A stretch of 64,000 nt of DNA from Nymphaea colorata (taxonomy: Eukaryota > Streptophyta > Magnoliopsida > Nymphaeales > Nymphaeaceae), in NCBI RefSeq assembly GCF_008831285.2, contig NC_045138.2, forward strand, positions 7,905,205 to 7,969,204, written 5' to 3'. Position 1 is the stretch's first letter. Every line of letters starts with the position of its first letter. Positions 4,864-64,000 of the stretch are shown here, piece by piece. Position numbers and translations under genes: made by a program. A model generated the notes under the pieces. It made no database searches. It saw only the letters and a list, made by a program, of their open reading frames with translations, and was not told the origin of the DNA.

Positions 4864-7800
4864 ATGATGTTGGGTACACATGCCTATGCGATTCGGGAAG
4901 CGCGCTTCCTGGCGGTTCCCCAAGAATTCCTTCTTTCTCCCAATGGCAGAAACTCCTCGTCTGCTGCGCTGCCGGCCGTCAAGTCCGTTCCGTTGGTGCG
5001 CCTTCATCGTCGTCGTCGCCGATCTGGTCAAGAGATCGGCGAAAGATCTCCGGCCAGAGTAGTGGTCGTTTCCTGTGCATCTCCGGCTACTGCAGCTCCT
5101 GCCGCCACCGGCAAAGGCGCCGGCAAGTCCACCGTGACGGCTACCATCTCCGTGCAGACAGAGGTGGAGAGTCTCCTCGCTAACATTGGGATCGGGCGGG
5201 GGCTCGATGACATAGCTGACCTGCTCGGGAAATCCATCCAAGTTGAGCTCGTCAGCTCAGAGCTCAACCTTGGTAAGCTGCAGCATCATTTACTTAAACC
5301 ATTTTATATTACAGTTTCTCACATATATACGGATAAAACCCTAGATTTCTCCATGCTTCGGCCTACAGATACAAGCGTAGCTTGCTCTAGTTGTCCGGAT
5401 GCTCCGTCCGCTCCAGCCGACACGCAGTTTTTAACGGATAGACGTTAACAAACAAGAGAAACTCTTTTATATATATATATGTATGTATATATATATATAT
5501 TATGATCCAAAGCTACCCAGCTCAGTTATAAACGACGAAAAAAATGGAGTGTGATATTTAATCTCTTTTAAAAACCTGTCAAATTTAAGCATCTTTAGAA
5601 GTAGACTAATGAAACATGCACAGACATTTGTGCGGCCTGATTGAGTTGCGTGTATATTTTTGTATTTACAATTTTTTATAAAAAAGTAAATGTTTTAGAT
5701 ATTTTGAGTGTTTTAGAATTTTTTTAACGTTTTAATTTTTTTTTAAATTGTTTTAATAAAAATATGATTATTGCAACCACTGGTGCAATGCACGTCACCA
5801 GCTTCGGTGCACGGCTACGGTTATATTAATGTATTGGAGGTCACGTTTCAGAAAATGGGAAGGAGAAGGAGAGCATAAAGGGATGGGCACACAAAGGGAA
5901 GAAAGGAGATGGGGTGCAAAAGTATGAGGCGAAGTTGGAGGTGGAAAGTGGGTTCGGGGAGGTGGGGGCTGTGCTTATCACCAACGTCCACCACACGGAG
6001 ATGTATTTCAAAGAGATAGAGCTCCGAGGTCTCCCTGAGGGAGACGTCCACATAACCTGCAACTCCTGGGTCCACCCCCAAAAGGACAGTCCTCAGAAGA
6101 GGGTCTTCTTCACCGACAAGGTAATTTTTTGGCTTTTCTGATCACTTAATGCCATAATAAAATTGGATATCCAAGTCTCCATTGCCTTACTTATATATAT
6201 ATATATATATATGATGGCATATATCTTACTAGGTCCAGACCTCTTAAATTGGACTGTTAAAATTCTTTTGTATCATCTATATAACTGTGACTGGTAACTG
6301 TGCTTGCTGTCTTCAGTTGTACCTATCCACTTTGGACAAATATTCTCTAACTTTGTTCCACTGAAGTAAAAGCCCTTCTCATCAGCCACCAGCGTAGCTA
6401 TCTGTTCAATTCATATGCCTGGACAGAACCACAAAATAATTTTAGTTAAGGAGTATTATATCATAAATTTTTATGGGCGCCGATATATATAAATAATTAA
6501 ATATTTGACGACATATATATATAAAATAAAAAAATAATCGTACGTTAAATATGTGTCATTAGTATTATTATTATCTCAAAATATCATATTTGTCCAGAAT
6601 ATTTAGAATATTCAAGTTCCACCCATTGACGTCCATGGCACCAATGCCAAGTTTGGGCTTTGGTGCTGAGCGTCCTGTGACTACTTAGAATCTTAATGGG
6701 GAGTCGTTGGGAGACGCGCTGACGTGAGGTAAAATCAGTCAGGCCATGTTCGTCAGCCTCCAGTCCGGCCATGTTTGGCCTTAAAAGTGTCACAGTTACA
6801 GTGCGTTTGATAGGGGGAAAGTTGTCTTCTTTAAAAAAAGCAATCTTCCAGAAAAAGAACACATTCACGCGTTCCAAAGAAGGGAATATTCCGGCTGCGA
6901 ACGTCTTCCCGCCCTAATGCCACGTTTGCCTCACAATAGCCTTAACCGTTGTAACTTATTTTAATAATATTTTTATTGATTTATATATATAATTATATAT
7001 ATTATGAGTAGTTATATGTATATATTATTTTATATTTAAATATATATTTTTAAATTTTAACTGGAATGGGTTTGAGCTCGACTTTTCAAGAAGCCGAGTC
7101 CGGTTTTGACCTTAGTATGGGCTCTAAGCTATAACCTTGCCCCCCGAACTCGACTCATTATCTGGCATGATGCTCAAATGATAGGTCTCTTTTTAAGATA
7201 TAAGAACCTTTTAGTCGTTTCCAATTCAGCTAGAGATTCTAATTTGATTGGATTTACGTATATCCAAAATTGCCGTTTGCTAAACCAGAGATGAAGTCTG
7301 TAAAGTCCAAAAAGGCACCGACAAACATTTTAACTTACCATGTTTGTTATATTTTTTGTACAATGCCATTCTTCCAATCCTTATCAAAATAAAATAAAAA
7401 AATCCTATTGACAACAGAACATTTATATCATTAACATTATTTACACAACAAAAAAAATGAATTATTGTTTCCCAAATTCATATCTTTGGAAAGACAAAGA
7501 GTTTTCATATAAGTGCATTTATAATACTCATTGGAGGAGTGAATGAATCGTGATTTTGGCTATGGTGAGTCATTCAAGCACCCTCCATAAGTTAGATGAT
7601 TAAGAGAAAAATAAGAAGAAAAAGATATGAAATAATGTTAGCTGATGAAAATGTTCATTATCTTTCTTTTCTTGATTTTTATTTCAAACGGTCCTCGCAA
7701 GTAAACTTGGTAACTTTGGATTCAATTTTCCCTCTTTGAATTAGATTTAAATTTGTAATATTTAAAAAAAAAATTGGTAGTACTAATTAAATGCACAAAA

Positions 7801-8085
7801 AAAAAAATGTGAAAACAGAGTTTCCTACCCAGCGCTACACCGGAAGGCCTGAAGAAGCTGAGAACTCAGGAGCTGGAGACGCTTCGCGGCAATGGCGAAG
7901 GAGAAAGAAAGACCCATGAGAGAATATACGACTACGATGTATATAACGACTTGGGCAATCCAGATTCCAGTGATTCTTTGAAGAGGCCAGTTCTTGGTGG
8001 TAAAGAACATCCCTATCCCAGGCGCTGCAGAACCGGTCGATCCAAATCCAAGAAAGGTGATCTCACTTATATCGAAAGTAGTTGT

Positions 8086-8116
<31 letters not shown>

Positions 8117-11100
8117 AGAATTAATTAACATGTCATGCTAAGCCTGGTATTGCCATGTACAGATCCACAGTCTGAAACCAGAGTTGGAGCGCTGCAGACC
8201 CCTTATGTACCAAGAGACGAGGCTTTCTCAGGGGTGAAGGGAGTGACCTTCTCAGCGAAGACGTTGAAGTCTGTCCTCCACACTCTGGTCCCAAATTTGC
8301 TCTCTGTGTTGAAGGATGACACCGTAGGGTTCCCCTTCTTCACAGCCATTGATACGCTGTTCCAGGATGGCCTTCGAATGAAGAAGCCTGGAAGCAGCAC
8401 AAGCCTCCTCAATGCAGTCGTGCCAAGATTAGTGAAGTTAATGGAAGGACAGGAGCTCCTGCTGTTTGAAATGCCAGAGATGATTGAGAGTACGTTTCCC
8501 ATTTAATTTTGATTCCTTGGACAATCCATCTCCTTGCGACTTATATGGAGGAAGAGAATCATGTTCGTGTTTGTCTCAGGGGACAAGTTTTCTTGGTTTA
8601 GAGATGAAGAGTTTGCTCGCCAGACTTTGGCGGGACTTAACCCACTCAGCATACAGTTACTCACGGTAAAATATTTTCACCACATCGTGTACTGATAATC
8701 TTTTAGATGCCCTCTTGAATTTGGACGTTGCTTTTGTTCAATTTTCTTACACGTTTTTTTTTCCCCCCTTTGATACGCCTGAGCGAGGATTGGGTTTCCT
8801 TCTGATCTGTTATTTGGCGCTGTTTGATATCAATTTGCAGGAGTTCCCTATTGTCAGTAAACTCGATCCAAAAGTGTATGGCCCTCCTGAATCGGCCATC
8901 ACCAAGCAGCTCGTTGAACAACAAATAAGAGGAGTCATGACCGTTGAAGAGGTCCTCTCTCTCTCTCTCTCTCTTTTCCTTTGTACTGCTCTCAGCCTTG
9001 CTAAAAAGTAAGAATGCACAAAAAGTGAGCTGAGCAGTGAGCTTGGCTCTGGTCACAAATTGCTGGGCTCAAGGTTGACTCAAGCTCAAGCCGAGCTTTA
9101 TGACTACACTTCATTTGATTCATATATATACAATTATACATATTCTTTAAATCAAAATGAATACCACAAAAAGCATGTGAAAATTTGTTAAGAATTATTG
9201 ACAAGCCCCAGAAAATTAATGAACAAGGAAGACACGAGTTAAGTTGAGTTTAAACAAGTCGAGCTCAAATAACACTCGAGTTTTAACTCAAGCTCTCGAC
9301 TAGTTTATAACTCAAGTTCTAACTCAATCTCAAGCTCAACTCATTGAATAAATGAGTCGAGCTAGAGTCGATCTTGCATGAGTGAATTCGAGTCGTGCCC
9401 AACTCATTGTACATACATAGTTATGAGATAGTTTCTTCTTTCTTTCTCACTCTCTCTCCCCCCAATATTTAATTCGTACATCATTGAAGGGTATTTTTAT
9501 TTCACTTACGCCTGTTTGAAAGGAAGAGAGGGAAAGGAAAGGGATGGGAAAAGAAATGAATGAAAAGGAAAGGAAAGAGATGATTTAAAAACTTGTTTGA
9601 ATAGAAAGAAAAGGAAAGGAATGGGAGGAGTAGTGTGAGAATAAAAAGACTCTTCTTATTCCCTTCCTTTCCTTTCCTTCCCAATCCGTCCGATTTGAGA
9701 GGGATTGCATTTACACTACACAATCCCTCCATTTCCTTTCCCTCCCCTCGCAACCAAACACATTTTCTTCCATTCCATTATTTCTAATTAACCAACCAAA
9801 CAAAGGAGAGATTGCTCAATTCCTCCTTTTCCCTCCCTTTCTCTCCAACCAAACAAGCCGTTAAGGATATTTTCTTCTTTATTGAAAAGTAACTTGCTCT
9901 TCCACTTTTGTCCTTCTCGAGCAGTTCATTTATCTTCTAGTTCATGGGCATTTCATCTTTTGGCCCTAGTGTTTACCTGCAAAGCAGATTTAGTCTAGGG
10001 GGTCTTGAATTGAACTGAATATGATGAAAAAAAGCATTTATAGCGGTTGTTTTTTGATACAGTAAATGTGTTACTGTCTCATGCATCTACCTCAAAAAGT
10101 GGGATAGATTAATGAACCATTTTTTTAAAGTGTCTAATGAATCTAATCAGTTTTTGGGTCAGATGCATGGTAATGTAACATAATGCTACTGTTCTTAAAC
10201 AGCCACATAAGGAATATGAAGTTAGCTTTTGGCAAAAAACAGAAATACCCCTTACCCAAAGGAAAAATACCCTAGAATGAAAAGGAAAAATCACCCCGGA
10301 GGATTGATTTTAGTATCTGATATAACACTAATTCACTTACATCTATTGCACCGGTGATTGAATATGTTTTGTTCACATATGGTCTGAATAGATTTTGATA
10401 TCTTGCATGTACACGAATGGTGCTTGAGAGAAGGCCATAGAGCAAAAGAAGCTGTTCATAGTGGACTACCATGATATCTTGCTGCCCTATGTGAACAAGG
10501 TGAGAGAGCTCTCTGGCACGACCTTGTATGGATCAAGGGCCCTCTTCTTCCACAACAAATTGGGCACATTAGAACCGGTTGCCATTGAGCTCACCCGCCC
10601 ACCTTCTTCGACCAAGCCACAATGGAAGCAAGTGTTCTCACCAGGTGTCGACGCAACCAATGTATGGCTCTGGAGGCTTGCCAAGGCACATTTTCTAGCT
10701 CATGACTCAGGATATCACCAGCTCGTAAGCCATTGGTAAGTGACTTAATTCTGTGATAGTGTGATAGAGGGAGGTCTATGTGAAAACATGCTGTGGATGA
10801 GGCATAAGTGAGCCTAGTCCAGTCAATACATGGATCAAACTCCTCTATGGTTCAGGCTCGCACCATTTCACTGCATATGAGTCTACTGTTTCTTTGTCTA
10901 AGTTAAACAGTGATTTAGTTAATGTGCCTGAAAGTGGGTCTGACCGATGTGGGCGTGCCAAGACAAGAACTCCACTTCAAACTCTCAACTCACAGCACAA
11001 ATTTTCTTACATGCTTCCAACTATATAAAAGAGAGTGAGTTGCATCCACCGGGGTGGTGTATGCAACAATACCCATGTACGGAAGAAAAAAATTTGGAGT

Positions 11101-13315
11101 TGGACTATCTTGGGAATTTTAAAAAAGAAATGACCCATTTTAGACTTTTAACTTTTTCAATACCCATGTTTATCCTTGTAGGAGACTTCCCTTTTTAGTG
11201 ACCATTTTCTGGTCATTATATACACTAATAAGGTATATAATGAGCGTACGTTAAATGTGAACTCCACTATTGCACATTTACTTTCATGCTCAAACACTGT
11301 ATATGTATGCACGTGAGTTAATAAATAGGTATGCAATAACAAATAATTATGAGATAATGCTCATGAGATAACAAAAGATTTATAAGATAATAAGATAACA
11401 GATGAATATATGCATGAGATAATGCTAAGTATAAGTATGAGATAATGTTTATGAGATAACAAAAGATTTATAAGATAAAAAGACAACGTCAGATGTATGA
11501 GGTAATGTTTATTAGATTATATATATATATATATACAAATTGATAAATTTTATCTTTATTAAATCTCCAAATCTTTTTTTACGTGTTTTTTTTTATCCTT
11601 ACAAAAAATTTCTTTTTTGTATTAATCATGACATATTTTGTCATTATTAAAATGACACATGAAATTCCACACACAAGAACAGCATATATAATCAGCTTTG
11701 GCATAAAACCAGCCTGGAAAGTATACAAACAAAACAAACTAGCTAGTACTTAAGCTGTGGCTGTTTAGAACCCAAGCTAAGGCACATGATACCATAATTA
11801 TCAACGTAGTTCATATTTAAAGAAAGATCACATAGCAGTATTCAAATTATCACATTTCTACGACCAATTTTGACAGGATATGAGATCGAAATCTATATAT
11901 TTATTGTGTATGAGCATACAAAATGCATGTTCTAAGACTTTTATATGAACTTTTGCAAAACCATGTAAAAGTTTTGATTGAATAACAAAAACACGTGTTT
12001 AAGTTTTGATTTCTTTTAGCTCATGGTTTCCATATGTTAAGCTGGCTGTATCTTTACATATATAGTTAGCCTGCTTGAAAGTTCTAGCGATTTCATTTGA
12101 TCCTGTGGCAGGCTGAGAACTCACTGCTGCACCGAGCCCTATATAATAGCAGCCAACAGGCAGTTGAGTGCCATGCACCCCATCTACAGGCTGCTGCACC
12201 CACACTTCCGGTACACTATGGAGATCAACGCGCTCGCCAGGCAGGACCTGATCAATGCCGACGGCATCATCGAGAAGTGCTTCTCTCCCTTGAAGTATTC
12301 CATCGAAATCAGCTCTGCCGCGTATGACAAGCTTTGGCGATTCGACTACCAGGCGCTTCCTGCAGATCTCATTCAAAGGTCCGCCCTTAGCTTCACCACT
12401 TTTAATTTGTTGATGAAAATCTTATTGCAGAACGAATCGAAAATCTTTGCTTCTTTAGATTTACATATATATCTAAAGACTAAAAAACTCACAGTTTCTG
12501 TACAAGAAACTTTGCCTGGACTTTCATGGAGATCACGCCATTAATCTTCTTCCAGGGGTATGGCTGTGGAGGACCCGACGGCCGAGCACGGCGTAAGGCT
12601 CGTGATAGACGACTACCCATTTGCCAACGACGGCCTCCTCATCTGGTCGGCGACCAAAGAGTGGGTCGCCGACTATGTCAACCACTTTTATGAAGATTCT
12701 CAAAAAGTAGTTTCAGACGCCGAGCTCCAGGCATGGTGGTCGGAGGTCCGGAACAAGGGCCACGCAGACAAGAAGGACGAACCATGGTGGCCGGCTTTGG
12801 ACTCGAGGGAGAGCCTGGTGCAGGTGCTGACCACCATCATCTGGGTCGTATCCGGCCACCATGCGGCCGTCAACTTCGGCCAGTACCCGTACGGCGGATA
12901 CTTCCCCAACCGGCCGACGATCGCCCGGACGAACATCCCAACGGAGGACGACTCGGCCATGCACTTCGACCTGTTCCTCAAGAAACCGGAGTCCGCGCTC
13001 CTCGGCTGCTTCCCGTCGCAAACTCAGGCGACATTGGTGATGGCGATACTCGACGTGCTGTCCACGCACTCGATCGATGAGGAGTACCTGGGGCAGCAGG
13101 CCGAGCCGGTGTGGCAGTCTGATCCGGCGATCATGGCGGTGTTTGAGAAGTTCAACGGGAAGCTGAAGCAGATCGAGCGCATCATAGATGAGAGGAACAC
13201 GAACAGGGAGCTGAGGAATAGATCGGGGGCAGGGATCCTCCCGTATGAGCTCCTTAAGCCCTTCTCTCAACCGGGTGTTACAGGGAAGGGAATCCCAACT
13301 AGCATTTCCATTTGA
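4864..13315 (+). CDS. LOX: Plastid 13-lipoxygenase, complete (LOX-A)
   Basis: Adds O2 to linoleate or linolenate in the plastid, the first step to jasmonates and leaf aldehydes. Nine exons: 4864-5272, 5852-6120, 7819-8056, 8163-8489, 8580-8665, 8841-8951, 10434-10735, 12112-12378, 12556-13315. All introns are GT-AG, and the exons join in frame to 922 codons, a normal size for plastid LOX. Residues 1 to about 70 are rich in Ser, Ala and Arg, with 'VVVSCA' as a likely transit-peptide end. The PLAT domain covers about 85-225 and the catalytic domain follows. All five expected iron ligands are present: His575 and His580 (HQLVSHW), His772 and Asn776 (HAAVNFGQ), and the C-terminal Ile922 (ending GIPTSISI). 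Cys637-Phe638 in IIEKCFSP is the Phe-type pocket typical of 13-LOX, and Ala621 in INALARQ fits an S-specific enzyme. ATG 4867 is an alternative start and is the one that aligns with LOX-B. The 3' side has AATAAG near 13443. Activity is inferred. Confidence 0.95.
5273..5851 (+). other. LOX-A intron 1
   Basis: Intron of 579 bp with GT-AG ends and phase 1. It holds a (TA)n tract near 5466-5500 and otherwise AT-rich sequence. The LOX-B intron 1 is about 1.9 kb and largely unlike it, so the introns have diverged far more than the coding exons. Confidence 0.8.
6121..7818 (+). other. LOX-A intron 2
   Basis: Intron of 1698 bp. The part at about 6590-6830 is recognisably related to about 61710-62280 in LOX-B intron 2 (shared phrases around 'cccattgacgtcc' and 'ggccatgtttggcc'). 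7060-7160 contains a degenerate 'gagctcgac' repeat typical of decayed elements. The open frames on either strand have no recognisable homology. Confidence 0.7.
9025..9405. repeat. Degenerate 'ctcaagctc' repeat in intron 6
   Basis: Many diverged copies of ctcaagctc, gagctcaa and gagtcgagct, both strands mixed, in about 380 bp. This texture is typical of the ends of decayed plant transposable elements. It has no coding capacity and I cannot assign a family. Confidence 0.45.
9509..9860. mobile_element. Tourist-like MITE in LOX-A intron 6
   Basis: The ends are inverted: left cgcctgtttgaaagga, right reverse-complement cggcttgtttggttgga. TTA flanks both sides (9506-9508 and 9861-9863), as expected for PIF/Harbinger insertion. 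The left third is nearly all purine and the right half nearly all pyrimidine, so the transcript could fold back on itself. Confidence 0.6.
10736..12111 (+). other. LOX-A intron 7
   Basis: Intron of 1376 bp that splits the Trp codon of HQLVSHW (TG before, G after). It is AT-rich, with a stretch at 11340-11520 made of repeated 'gagataatg' and 'aagataa' phrases and a short (TA)n at 11519-11535. No coding sequence is recognised. Confidence 0.75.
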
Positions 13316-35900: not shown

Positions 35901-36125
35901 AGTTTGTTGACCTACCCTCTACCCTGGTTGCTTTTGGTTACTGGACGTTGTATCCAAGCTCGTTTATCATCTTAATGGGCCCGCATAGTTTAAAAATGCA
36001 TGGAAAGAGCGTATCAAAATTCCAAATGTATGGGAGCGGAAAAAGTGCATTTCTGTTTGGGCCACGGGTTGTGTGTGGGTCATCTACATTGAAATCTTTC
36101 ACATCAGCTACAAAAGTGGGAATGG

Positions 36126-37755
36126 AACTTATCGTCAGTACATAACATTATTATCATTAGTAAGTAACATTAGTTTAATTATAATAATTTTTCACTATAC
36201 AGATTACAGTGTTATTTTAATTTCCTTGGTTCTGTTCGAGTCTTGAAAAAAGGCCCTACAGCAAAGCAACTTAACCTTTCCCATTTGAAAATAGCATGTC
36301 AGAAACACCTTATGTGGCTTCTTGTGTGCATCCTTTGAATTCAGAAACATTCTCGAGTGGCTCTGCAGATAAATCTGAACCAGACTATGCCCCTCCTCCA
36401 GAGAAGAAATTAAGGACCAACAATGGTAGTGTTTTAGTAGCCGGTATTGCTCCTTCAGATGGTTTTCCCAAGGTTCCACATGTTGGGACTGAAGGCACTG
36501 TACCTGTAAAAACGTGCAGACCGAACACAAAAATCCGTATGATATCATGCCATCTGCATCACAAGCAGCTAGTGAAACACCATCTAAACCAACTGCTACT
36601 ATAGCAAAATTTGCCAGCCAACCAATACCGAAGCCAATGACAGTTGGAGCATCGGCCAAAAGAATTGCGAGGCACCAAAGTTCCTGCGTCTTTGTCACAG
36701 CCAGCTTTTTCCCAATCATAGCCTTTAGGAAAAAGCAGCAAAAAAACCACTGCTGCTCGTATGGTAGGATCTAGGACCTGGCGTCGGACTGATAATACCT
36801 CAAATTCCACATCCACTGGACAGCAGCTTCTCTCACATAGTACTTCTTTGGGAAAACAATCAATGATTAAGCAGGATATACGAACAAAAATCTCCATCGG
36901 CAAATGGACCAGCTGATGGAGGGGATAAAGTTGTCACCAGTACGAGTGTGGGGTTCCAAAACAAGATGAAGGCAGTCAATCCGTGACAACTTTATCCCCA
37001 CACTCGTACTGGTGACAACTTTATGCTCTCCATCAGCTGGTCCATTTGCCGATGGAGATTTTTGTTCGTATATCCTGCTGATTGTTTTCCCAAAGAAGTA
37101 CTATGTGAGAGAACCTGCTGTCCAGTGGATGTGGAATTTGAGGTATTATCAGTCCGACGCCAGGTCCTAGATCCTACCATACGAGCAGCAGTGGTTTTTT
37201 TGCTGCTTTTTCCTAAAGGCTATGATTGGGAAAAAGCTGGCTGTGACAAAGACGCAGGAACTTTGGTGCCTAGCAATTCTTTTGGCCGATGCTCCAACTG
37301 TCATTGGCTTCGGTATTGGTTGGCTGGCAACTTTTGCTATAGTAGCAGTTGGTTTAGATGGTGTTTCACTAGCTGCTTGTGATTCAGACGGCATTGTCCT
37401 GAACCCTCGGAAAACCATCTGAAGGAGCAAATACCGTTTACTAAAACACTACCATTGTTGGTCCTTAATTTCTTCTCTGGAGGAGGGGCATAGAGAGTTC
37501 AGATTTATCTGCAGAGCCACTCAAGAATGTTTCTGAATTCAAAGGATGTACACAAGAAGCCACATAAGCTGTTTCTGACAAGCTATTTTCGAATGGGAAA
37601 GGTTAAGTTGGTTTGCTCTATGGCCTTTTTTCAGCACTCGAACAGAACCAAGAGAAGTAAAATAACACTGTAATCTGCATGGTGAAAAATTATTATAATT
37701 AAACTAATGTTACTTACTAATGATAATAATGTTATGTACTGAACGATAAGTTCGA
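36126..37755. repeat. Inverted repeat, two arms of about 0.8 kb
   Basis: The left arm, about 36126-36953, is the reverse complement of the right arm, about 36996-37755, around a 42-bp spacer. Outer ends match (left 'cttatcgtcagtacataac', right 'gttatgtactgaacgataag'), and so do inner ends (left 'cgagtgtgggg', right 'ccccacactcg'). A transcript across it would fold into a very long hairpin. Confidence 0.85.
36296..36953 (+). pseudogene. Captured gene fragment in left arm, unidentified
   Basis: Coding-like plus-strand sequence with frame breaks: 'MSETPYVASCVHPLNSETF', 'PDYAPPPEKKLRTNNG', 'PSASQAASETPSKPTATI', 'MTVGASAKRIARHQSS', 'MVGSRTWRRTDNTSNST'. It is rich in Ser, Thr, Pro and Lys, like a disordered region of a nuclear protein, but I cannot name the family. 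The right arm holds the same sequence on the minus strand (37560-36996), with different mutations; for example 36992-37180 keeps 'RQMDQLMESIKLSPVRVW' open. Confidence 0.5.
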
Positions 37756-56490: not shown

Positions 56491-56740
56491 CCCTGTTGCC
56501 ATCAATGTTAAAGTTGAAACAGTCTGACCAAACCCTAACTTAACTTTACCTCTTTTGAAAAAAAAAATATTTTTTTTAGTTACCGGGCTTCTCAAGCCCT
56601 CACGGTATACAATTTCAAGCTCGAGCCTGAGCCCTTACAACACCAGCCCGTTAATCTATTTTTTGATACCAAAGGCCCAGCCTGAGTCGGGCCAAGTACC
56701 GAGTACCTGACGGCAGCTCGGTCCGGTGCCCATGCTTAAT

Positions 56741-57124
56741 GCTTACCCTTGACCCAGCCCCAAGCTTTTAGATGAGAGGCAAACCTTTTGCACGAAGAAC
56801 TTGTTTATGTGATTTTAGTTGCATCCACCAACCATTGACAGAGCCCGAATATTGTATTTGAGACTTGAGAGGCAATCCTTTTTTCGCAAATTAAATACTA
56901 TTGTGGGGCAATTGCCGGTATAAGCTCTGAAATGCTTACCCTTGACCCAGCCCCAAGCTTTTAGATGAGAGGCAAACCTTTTGCACGAGGAACTTGTTTA
57001 TGTGATTTTCGTTGCATCCACCAACCATTGGCAGAGCCCGAATATTGTATTTGAGACTTGAGAGGCAATCCTTTTTTTGCAAATTAAATATGACTGTGGG
57101 GCAATTGCCTGCACAAGCTCTGAA
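56741..57124 (+). repeat. Promoter minisatellite of LOX-B, two units of 193 bp
   Basis: Units at 56741-56933 and 56934-57124 both start gcttacccttgacccag and contain 'gcatccaccaaccattg' and 'gaggcaaaccttttgcacga'. The monomer is related to the three-unit array upstream of LOX-A (3521-3860), but the repeat period differs, so amplification was independent. Confidence 0.8.
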
Positions 57125-59179: not shown

Positions 59180-62100
59180 GAAAAAAGAGAGAAAGGAAAA
59201 TTGAAAAGTCCAAAGTTATCCACATCATTCATAAAAAGTTATATTCATGGGGATTGATGCCGTTCGATAAAAACAAGAAGAAAAAAAGATGCATGGAATA
59301 ATTGAGCACACCGTCACATAAATGTAGGGAGGCGTGATGGATGGAATTTTTCGTCTCTTTCCACCTTTCGGTTTCCGTCTTCCCTCTCCCTTTAGACCGT
59401 ACGATGTTTCTTTTTCATTCGTCTTTTTTCGAACAACTTTTTTCCAATAGTTCATTTTTTTTACGGATCGTCAAACGATTCAGTCGAAACGGTGAGTCGG
59501 CCGATTCGACGTAATATGATGTGCCCCTACATATGTTTATTATGTGGTCCATTTAGTTTTGTTTTTAACTTATTAATTTAAATATATAAATAGATACACC
59601 CATAAACAATATATCAATGTAGAAGAATTTTAAATATCTTAAATATTAAATGTTTATGTTGGATCCTTTTTCTGAATTCACATATTTTGTATTTACTGCA
59701 CCATTGAATTTAGGAATCACATGATTTACCAACAAAGATTTTAAGAGATTGGGTAGATTAAAATGTAGGAGTGGCTTTATACATATGTAATTTGTAGATT
59801 GCTCCCAATGGGTTTGACCAGAATAATCCTTTAGCCTTTCGCAGGGGACATGTGCATGATTAAAGGCAGTCCCATCAAATTTGTGAAGTCGCCTACATAA
59901 TAATTAATATATATATATATATATGCCATCTTAGCGAACAATATTCTCTTTCACACCAATTATCGGAAATAAGAAACTAAAAGAAAGAAGATGTTGGAGC
60001 AAATTTAGCGAAAAGACATATTGCCCAACTTTTCTTTCATTTCAATAGATATAGGATGGGGGGAGCTAATTCAAATCTTTAGGTAAAACGAGAACTGCCA
60101 CTACATTCAAATCTCCCTTTTTACCTTTAGTAAGATCCTGTTTCAATTGCATGTCGTGGTGATTCTAACAACTGCTTCAACTACAATATCTCTCACGACA
60201 TTTTGAACCCAACTCACATACCGTTTTAATGGGCCAACAGCTCAACCCTTGGAACGTACTACCGCCAAGCAGCCAAAACTCAAGTCTACCCAGTTCAACT
60301 TCCACCACCTATACACCCTTTACATAAAAAGAAATAATAGAAAAAACCATTTTTTTTACTTACATGCTTTTTGTCTATAAAAATATTTTTTTAATATATT
60401 GGAGGTTATTTTTCAGACAATGGGATGGAAAAGGAGAGCATAAAGGGATGGGCACACAAAGGGAAGAAAGGAGATGGGGTGCAAAAGTATGAGGCGAAGT
60501 TGGAGGTGGAAAGTGGGTTCGGGGAGGTGGGGGCTGTGCTTATCACCAACGTCCACCACACGGAGATGTATTTCAAAGAGATAGAGCTCCGAGGTCTCCC
60601 TGAGGGAGACGTCCACATAACCTGCAACTCCTGGGTCCACGCCCAAAAGGATAATCCTCAGAAGAGGCTCTTCTTCACTGACAGGGTAAATTATTGCTTC
60701 TACCGACAGGCTTTTTTTTTTTTCTTTTTCACTTGATTCCTTCATAAAATTAGTATAATAACATCCAAATTGCAAAAATTAACGGTAACAATATAAAGAT
60801 ATTTTTTTGAATTATATATATAATGACTCTTATTATTTAAAGTTACACAATTTTTATAAAAACTGTCTGATTTATTGTAATGGACGGGTAAAAGAAAAGC
60901 AAAAAAAATGTATTTAGTATTTTTATAAATTAGTATCAGTTTCTTTTTTTTTTTCAACCATTTAACATGATCATGCTAGAGGTAGGGTTAGGGCTAGGGC
61001 CATGCGGGTTCTATCTTGGCTGGCTGGCCTCTGCATTCCCATCAACTTTAATCTTTCTTGGCTTGGCCCCACTGCTTTCACATCAACTTTAAGCTTTTAC
61101 CTAAAGATTCTCTCTATCTTTGCTACACTGAGCCCTTTTTATTGTTATTAGGCCACAAGCATGATCGTTGTTATCATTATCCTGTCATATATATATATTG
61201 TACATTATGTGTCTCTGTCACTACTTGTGAGCTGGTCCTGTCATTTCTCAGCCATTTGCCATTGTCTTTAGCTAAGTCCCTGCCCCTTAAGAGAGATCCA
61301 ATTGAAGAAGACTACCTAGCTATAAATCCAAGTTAGATGTCATATCTAACCAAACTATTTCATAAAGATCGCACAAAACAAAAATTGAACGTTCAATTAA
61401 GAAATTGAATCAGACTCAGATCTAAGAAATGATATTCGATTGGATTTGAATTCACATTTAAATAAATATTTAAGCAGATTTAGATTCGAATTCAGTTTGA
61501 CTTTAAATATCCATTATTTTGAAAGGCGGTTCTTGACATATCATATGTAATAGGGTTTGGACCCAGATTGTCTGTTGTGTATTTAAAAATTGGATTTGGA
61601 TTGTGACTTCAGATTTAGATTTGAAAACAATGTAAGCTTTTCTTTTTTTGCTTGTGAATCCAATGTGTGCCTATCCAAGAAGGCAGGGAAATGGTAAAAT
61701 AATATACCATATTCTACTTCCATCCATTGACATCCTTATCTCCAATGCCAACACAAACTTCGACTTTGGTGTCAGGCCTCCTTACTAAGTAGAATGTTGC
61801 CATCAAAGCAGGTTATGTGCGCACCCTTGTGCACTAAAAATTGTGCACAGGGTTAGTACCTCTGGTTATACTAAAAAAAAAAACATATGGAAAAGTTAAA
61901 ATGTCTAAAATAGATATAAATCTTTAAAAAATACCTCAACCCTTTTTTTTTTGTTGGTCCTGTCTTGGGAGTACACAAGGGTCAAGCCAAGGGGGCGTCC
62001 CGCAGGGGCCCTGCTCTTCCCCCTTTCAAATTTTTTTTTAAATTTACATGTAAATTTTAAAAAATTTCACTTGTTTTATATAAAAATTTTGAAAAATGAT

Positions 62101-64000
62101 ATTTCAGCCTCATTCATGAAAATTGTTTGATTCGGCCCCTGATCTGCACCATTCACTTGATGGGGAGTCCATTGACGCCAGGGAAGCCACTGGCGGCCAT
62201 GTTTCTCAGCCTCCATTCTGGCCAATAGTTGCTACTATTGGCCAAAAAATCGCACGGTCAGAGTGTGTTTGATAACTGGAAATTGTGTTCTATGAAAGCA
62301 ATGTTTCATGACTTCTGTACTTATGATAGACTGTCTCAGTTAATTTAAAATATAAGGGTATTTACCTTTCTCACCATTCTTTTCTTATAAAAGGCTAGGG
62401 TCTCTTTTCAACATAAAAGGACATTTTAGTCATTCCCCATTGAGCTCGCTTCCTGGCCTATGGAGGGCAATATCAAGCGACACATTCAAATTTGGCTGGA
62501 CTTATATATATCCCAATTCATTTCCATTTCTTCTCGAAGAACCCAATCCTAACACTAGCTCCTTATATAATTCCAAATTTTGAACTCCCAGGCCAATTTG
62601 AGACGACTGTTTGTTAAACCAGCACTAAAAACTTATTACGATGGATGGTTGAGAAAACAAATCTACAATTTAAAACTAGATGATGAAATGACCATCATAT
62701 TTTTTTTCCTTATTTTTATATTTTTCTCTCAGCCCTCGTAAGTAAAATGAGTGATTTTCTCTTCATTTTGCTCATTCAATGGAATGTGCACTTAAATTTA
62801 GAATCTTTTAATAATAAGAATGGTACTAACTAGACGCACAAAAAAAACAAAAAAAACTGATGTGAAAACAGAGTTACCTGCCCAGCGCTACACCGGAAGG
62901 CCTGAAGAAGCTGAGGGCTGAGGAACTGGAGACTCTTCGCGGCAATGGCGAAGGAGAAAGAAAGACCCATGAGAGGATATACGACTACGATGTATATAAC
63001 GACTTGGGCAATCCAGATTCCAGTGATTCTTTGAAGAGGCCAGTTCTTGGTGGTAAAGAACATCCCTATCCCAGGCGCTGCAGAACCGGTCGATCCAAAT
63101 CCAAGAAAGGTGATCTCACTTATATCGAAAGTAGTTGTTATATTATATATATCTATCTATATATATAAGAATTAATTAACATGTCATGCTAAGCCTGGTA
63201 TTGCCATGTACAGATCCACAGTCTGAAACCAGAGTTGGAGCGCTGCAGACCCCTTATGTACCAAGAGACGAGGCTTTCTCAGGGGTGAAGGGAGTGACCT
63301 TCTCAGTGAAGACGTTGAAGTCGGTTCTCCACACTTTGGTCCCAAATTTGCTCTCTGTGTTGAAGGATGACACCATAGGGTTCCCCTTCTTCACAGCCAT
63401 TGATACGCTGTTCCAAGAGGGCCTTAGAATGAAGCAGCCTGGAAGCAGCACAAGCCTCCTTAATTCCGTTGTGCCCAGGATAGTGAAGTTGATGGAAGGA
63501 GAGGAGCTCCTGCAGTTCGAAGTGCCAGAGATGATTGAGAGTAAGTTCCTCCATTTAATCTTGGCTCCTTGGATAATCGATCTCCTTGCGACTTTACATG
63601 GAGAAAGAGAATCACGTTCGCGTTTGTTTCAGGGGACAAGTTTTCTTGGTTTAGAGACGAGGAGTTTGGTCGTCAGACTCTGGCGGGTCTTAACCCACTG
63701 AGCATAGAGTTACTCACGGTAAAATATTTTCACGACATCGTATACTGACAATCTTTTAGATGCCTTTTGAATTTGGAAGTTTCTTTTGTTCAATTTTTTA
63801 AATGTTTTTATTCTTCTTTGATATACTTGATCGGGGATCTGGTATCCTTCTGATCATCTATTATTTGTTGTTATTTGATTTCAATTTGCAGGAATTCCCT
63901 ATTGTCAGTAAACTCGATCCAAAGGTGTATGGCCCTCCTGAATCGGCCATCACCAAGGAGCTCGTTGAACAACAAATAAGAGGTGTCATGACCGTTGAAG
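58112..64000 (+). CDS. LOX: Plastid 13-lipoxygenase, 5' part (LOX-B), cut by window end
   Basis: Paralogue of LOX-A with the same exon phases: exons 58112-58517, 60417-60685, 62872-63109, 63214-63540, 63633-63718, and 63892 to beyond 64000. Exons 2-5 have exactly the lengths of LOX-A; exon 1 is one codon shorter. No stop or frameshift appears in the visible 478 codons. The N-terminus (MLGTQAYTL...) again looks like a plastid leader ending near 'VVVSCA', followed by the PLAT domain ('[18 protein letters not shown]') and the start of the catalytic domain ('[14 protein letters not shown]', '[15 protein letters not shown]'). The motif before the last reads EFGRQ where LOX-A has EFARQ. Iron ligands lie beyond the window, so activity cannot be judged. 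The TATA box and intact frame suggest a live gene. Confidence 0.93.
58518..60416 (+). other. LOX-B intron 1
   Basis: Intron of 1.9 kb. It contains a 35-bp direct duplication (58733-58767 and 58768-58800), a purine-rich stretch (58800-59030), (TA)n tracts at 59148-59174 and 59909-59924, and a decayed repeat near 60050-60320. No coding sequence is seen. LOX-A intron 1 is only 579 bp. Confidence 0.75.
60686..62871 (+). other. LOX-B intron 2
   Basis: Intron of 2.2 kb. It holds a copy of the 'ttgacatcc' MITE-like family at about 61380-61735 and sequence related to LOX-A intron 2 at about 61710-62280. No gene within. Confidence 0.7.

Follow-up and report, generated by a model that had tools for sequence, protein, structure and literature searches.

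Recent, patchy, non-allelic gene conversion as the best explanation for an identical tract around intron 3 of two tandem lipoxygenase genes in Nymphaea colorata

Results

Two tandem lipoxygenase genes

The window (the whole stretch of 64,000 nucleotides of Nymphaea colorata nuclear DNA analysed here) includes two lipoxygenase genes, arranged head to tail and 55 kb apart, which are both full-length in the contig:

4864..13315, plus strand: lipoxygenase copy 1 (gene model), with nine exons and an uninterrupted frame of 922 aa
58112..64000, plus strand: lipoxygenase copy 2, exons 1-6 inside the window, whose end cuts the gene

The eight introns of copy 1 are all GT...AG in the gene model. Copy 2, when read into the next bases of the contig, gave a complete nine-exon frame encoding 921 aa, and the two proteins are identical in 856/922 alignment columns. 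The Pfam matches were Lipoxygenase (PF00305, 1061.8 bits) and PLAT (PF01477, 40.7 bits) in copy 1, and Lipoxygenase (299.5 bits) in the part of copy 2 lying inside the window. These tandem genes combine lipoxygenase and PLAT domains with a complete frame whose last residue is isoleucine; the best solved relative from exon 3 onward is 8qdr, labelled only 'Lipoxygenase'. We presume that both encode a plastid 13-lipoxygenase of the LOX2-like kind, which is probable given their N-terminal extension and their likeness to LOX2 proteins.

The home assembly searched comprises 407,766,735 bases in 783 contigs, and the only full-length matches reported in this 407.8-Mb search were the two genes described here. 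Both copies lie on one 44-Mb contig, with zero N in the window or in the following 20 kb. A third, broken lipoxygenase piece was observed approximately 9-12 kb beyond the window end (joined coordinates 73172-75724); its match begins at the end of exon 8, covers exon 9 and reaches into the 3' flank. Around exon 9 it is about 86% identical to copy 1 and copy 2, and no single open frame crosses it.

An identical tract spanning intron 3

The two genes share the following features around intron 3:

7924..8255, plus strand: identical tract in copy 1, 332 bases (exact comparison and alignment)
62977..63306, plus strand: matching identical tract in copy 2, 330 bases (exact comparison and alignment)
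8086..8117, plus strand: TA microsatellite of intron 3, the sole differing part of the tract
7882..7922, plus strand: possible leftward extension of the tract, 41 identical bases to the left of a lone difference at 7923

Identity of 7924-8255 and 62977-63306 in everything except the TA tract had been claimed by the sequence-only reading, and exact comparison confirmed it. Counting from 7924, there are 176 identical bases, a differing middle inside the TA tract (7 bases vs 5 bases) and 149 identical bases up to 8255; two TATC units are present in the TA tract of copy 2 and absent from copy 1. Of exon 3 (7819-8056) the tract covers most, 133 bases; it then spans the whole of intron 3 (8057-8162) and ends 93 bases into exon 4 (8163-8489). 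The span previously proposed (exon 3, intron 3 and the start of exon 4) holds with most of exon 3 being covered. Both edges fall within exons and not at exon borders, according to the gene models and the exact comparison. The nearest differences outside the tract are 7923 (A/G) on the left and 8256 (C/T) on the right, the latter followed by 8272, 8275 and 8285; further left in exon 3 there are seven differences within 7823-7881. The tract may start anywhere between 7882 and 7924, the difference at 7923 being a later mutation or the true boundary. The earlier description of both ends as abrupt consequently stands for the right edge (8256), and applies only loosely to the left one, where 7923 is a lone difference after 41 identical bases.

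Divergence inside and outside the tract

The exon parts adjoining the tract differ between the copies (8/105 bases in 7819-7923 and 21/234 in 8256-8489), and introns 4 and 5 differ at 13-17%. dS was 0.229 in exon 3 to the left of the tract and 0.263 in exon 4 to its right. Silent differences inside the tract amounted to 0 over 53 silent sites; outside the three main tracts (the other two are described below), 507.7 silent sites carried 108.5 differences. The non-TA sites of intron 3 were equally unchanged (0/74), whereas introns 4 and 5 had changed at 41/260 sites (Fisher p 2.7e-5). Both flanks thus retain the older divergence of the paralogues, the left edge being blurred by the 41 identical bases. 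Introns 1 and 2 had been called barely alignable, and this was borne out: forced alignments differ in 48.2% and 50.2% of their columns respectively, and within intron 2, apart from its ends, sensitive BLAST detected nothing more than islands with 60-77% identity. The argument that protein constraint is insufficient to explain the tract was also upheld, because silent sites and intron 3 are unchanged while the flanking parts of the same two exons show the dS values given above. Over the whole gene, dS between copy 1 and copy 2 was 0.194, vs 0.252 outside the three longest tracts (the exon 8 tract being entered as 12134-12296, one changed codon included), indicating that the patches pull down dS-based dates for this pair.

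The permutation tests presuppose a uniform rate over the gene. With the TA tract masked, 82/1096 columns of the block 7819-8949 differed, and its longest identical run, of 302 columns, was reached in 0/200000 permutations (largest 213). Using silent sites only, permuted within class (introns, codons), the run was 155 sites, reached again in 0/200000 (largest 121). The coding sites of exons 1-6 alone gave a weaker result, the tract run being matched in 661/200000 permutations. When degenerate third sites were followed through the full coding sequence, the four longest unchanged runs were 80, 70, 52 and 44, and same-ranked runs at least as long appeared in 220, 2, 12 and 5 of 100000 permutations; the value for the intron 3 tract on these sites alone (220/100000) is less extreme than with the intron, indicating that intron 3 carries much of the statistical weight. 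The silent changes expected in the tract were approximately 23, and the log10 P of finding none was -11 (-5.2 at half the outside rates).

Further identical tracts in the same gene pair

Two other long identical tracts were detected between the copies:

5866..6075, plus strand: identical tract in exon 2, 210 bp (copy 2 partner 60431-60640)
12134..12289, plus strand: identical tract in exon 8, 156 bp (partner beyond the window end)

The exon 2 tract shows zero silent change over 43 sites, and the genome search with exon 2 reported two places only, the two lipoxygenase copies. Between this tract and the end of exon 2 (6076-6120, 45 bases) there are six differences. The tracts of exon 2 and exons 3-4 are best treated as two events, because the interior of intron 2 is diverged and there are differences between the tracts in both exons. 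A single RNA-templated (cDNA) conversion joining them was considered and rejected, since intron 3 lies inside the tract, and since the six differences at 6076-6120 and the seven at 7823-7881 part the two tracts. Most likely, exon 2 and exon 8 each owe their tract to a separate, similar conversion event. We tentatively suggest, as a possibility that is rather doubtful at present, that the exons act as homology islands which are exchanged repeatedly, while the long introns 1 and 2 have diverged too far for pairing; conversion would then be renewed exon by exon. If this is true, repeated short conversions would homogenise the exons patch by patch, in some cases (exon 2) within islands of only approximately 270-300 bp amid heterologous DNA.

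The same segment in other lipoxygenase genes

The comparison set, taken from the protein search with exons 3-6, was composed of a four-gene tandem cluster near C1:23.2 Mb and the single genes on C2 and C8. This second lipoxygenase tandem cluster, of four genes, extends over C1:23209701-23303148. In the exon 3 segment, silent differences were present in 6/6 pairs of cluster genes (pS 0.064-0.160); in the exon 4 segment, 5/6 pairs showed 2-5 silent differences and the pair 9b-9d showed 0/21. The longest identical run in the six cluster pairs was 60-105 bases. When the segment of the copy 1/copy 2 pair was compared with the C2 and C8 genes, silent sites were near saturation (pS 0.76 or more); pN was approximately 0.25 in the exon 3 segment and 0.32-0.34 outside it, and 0.30-0.40 in the exon 4 segment and 0.46-0.55 outside it. 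The segment is therefore unlikely to be an inherent mutational cold spot, judging from its variation at silent sites in these other paralogues.

The non-TA halves of intron 3 were searched against 12 stretches of other lipoxygenase genes, in which the best match was a 10-base word (E 0.57). The matches listed were nothing but exact words, 8-10 bases long and with E no better than 0.57, the complete list at E<=1 having two rows; the same search recovered copy 2 in full. In the cluster pair 9b-9c, the first part of exon 3 showed no silent change and the remainder showed five, a hint that conversion may have acted in that pair too.

Gene conversion and its alternatives

Recent, patchy, non-allelic gene conversion between the tandem lipoxygenase duplicates very probably accounts for the tract and is its best explanation. 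The conversion-like character proposed by the sequence-only reading is supported by the unchanged silent exon sites and intron, the diverged flanks, the variability of the paralogues and the further tracts. Most likely, a break in one lipoxygenase copy was repaired with the other copy, at a distance of 55 kb, as template, and the repair would have copied approximately 330-375 bases, starting within exon 3, passing through intron 3 and ending in exon 4. The TA microsatellite may have re-diverged after conversion through fast slippage. We infer the recency of the exchange from one genome.

Short-read polishing can blur repeats, and reads of one copy might have written the consensus of both over the tract. 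Such an assembly or polishing artefact would be favoured if the assembly is the published one, which, in the part of PMC7015852 considered here, is reported as a Canu assembly treated with Arrow and afterwards with Pilon, the latter using Illumina reads. It is nonetheless quite unlikely: the TA tract inside the stretch is still distinct between the copies, the flanking exon parts and introns 4 and 5 are diverged, so that reads are separable at the edges, and we reason that polishing should confuse only copies that are already near-identical over a read length. The further tracts of the same pair would require the same error again, and the copies are well apart on a single contig, in a window without N. 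A crossing-over, double or unequal, or transfer from a third copy to both genes would be expected to leave the same footprint as direct conversion, and the broken lipoxygenase piece past the window end is a conceivable source; these routes are nevertheless highly unlikely. Crossing-over would require two close exchanges, since the divergence of the pair is retained on either side of the tract. Regarding a third donor, the match of the broken piece starts only at the end of exon 8, no third close copy emerged from the protein search with exons 3-6, and the genome searches, which score only the best candidates, reported two places only for the full-length tract and for exon 2, the third row of the search with the tract being a 28-base TA match. 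A third near-identical copy as donor was accordingly rejected, none being reported in the genome searches for the tract or exon 2.

An explanation without exchange, in which exons 3-4 encode a conserved region and a regulatory or RNA element resides in intron 3, both copies changing slowly over the segment, could draw on the lower amino-acid change inside the segment than outside it in comparison with C2 and C8, and on the RNA folding prediction for 8040-8180 (z -2.05, with 5/200 shuffles folding as well). This predicted fold contains the TA-repeat hairpin. The saturation of the silent sites of the segment vs C2/C8, the variation of the cluster genes in exon 3, and the non-TA halves of intron 3, which among the matches listed have no counterpart elsewhere beyond words of 8-10 bases, argue against such constraint, which we consider extremely unlikely. 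No Rfam family reached its gathering score in the window. The idea of a known RNA within intron 3 was discarded, given the lack of an Rfam match and a fold of 8040-8180 only slightly stronger than that of the shuffles.

Comparison with known systems

Conversion between the two lipoxygenase copies resembles cases described in other plants. A survey of the rice genome reported 377 conversion events with an average of 130 nt and a range of 4-1237 (PMC2277409, in the part considered here); the lipoxygenase tract, at approximately 330, lies within this range and is thus ordinary in size. Both cases consist of an unusually similar stretch in diverged paralogues on one chromosome; they differ in that the rice survey, in that same part, speaks of cDNA alignments, whereas the lipoxygenase tract contains an intron, which provides independent support. 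The Capsicum AT3-1/AT3-2 pair, as presented in the part of PMC6343889 considered, is likewise formed by tandem metabolic-enzyme paralogues with non-homologous introns and a part-gene exchange, but it involves one recombinant with inferred parents, and the lipoxygenase pair shows several short patches. The cucumber 13-lipoxygenase cluster also comprises tandem 13-LOX genes with high similarity; the portion of that paper considered here, in contrast to the present analysis, maps no conversion tract and names gene conversion only for disease-resistance gene clusters (PMC6628033).

By titles and abstract starts, no paper mapping the lipoxygenase tract was found among the papers listed on lipoxygenase gene conversion, tandem duplication and Nymphaea, and the main text of PMC7015852 contains neither 'gene conversion' nor 'lipoxygenase'. 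The tract is a well-supported but ordinary example of a known process, in which one gene copy overwrites part of its neighbour, and it changes no general view. Its value is that of a clean conversion case in an early-diverging flowering plant, readable from the intron and the exon silent sites together.

Other repeats in the window

The region 18610-42999 contains blocks around 90% alike, in several staggered copies, which include 72-base tandem units and long TA runs; these blocks are perhaps nested mobile elements or the product of local multiplication. A 354-base inverted repeat, 93% alike (36125-36476 and 37401-37753), bounds approximately 1.6 kb, and from its arrangement the interval 36125-37753 looks like a putative transposon with long terminal inverted repeats; the open frame 36204-36770 (minus strand) gave no Pfam family match. 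Finally, positions 56738-57124 form a two-copy tandem repeat with a 193-base unit, the copies being approximately 94-95% alike.
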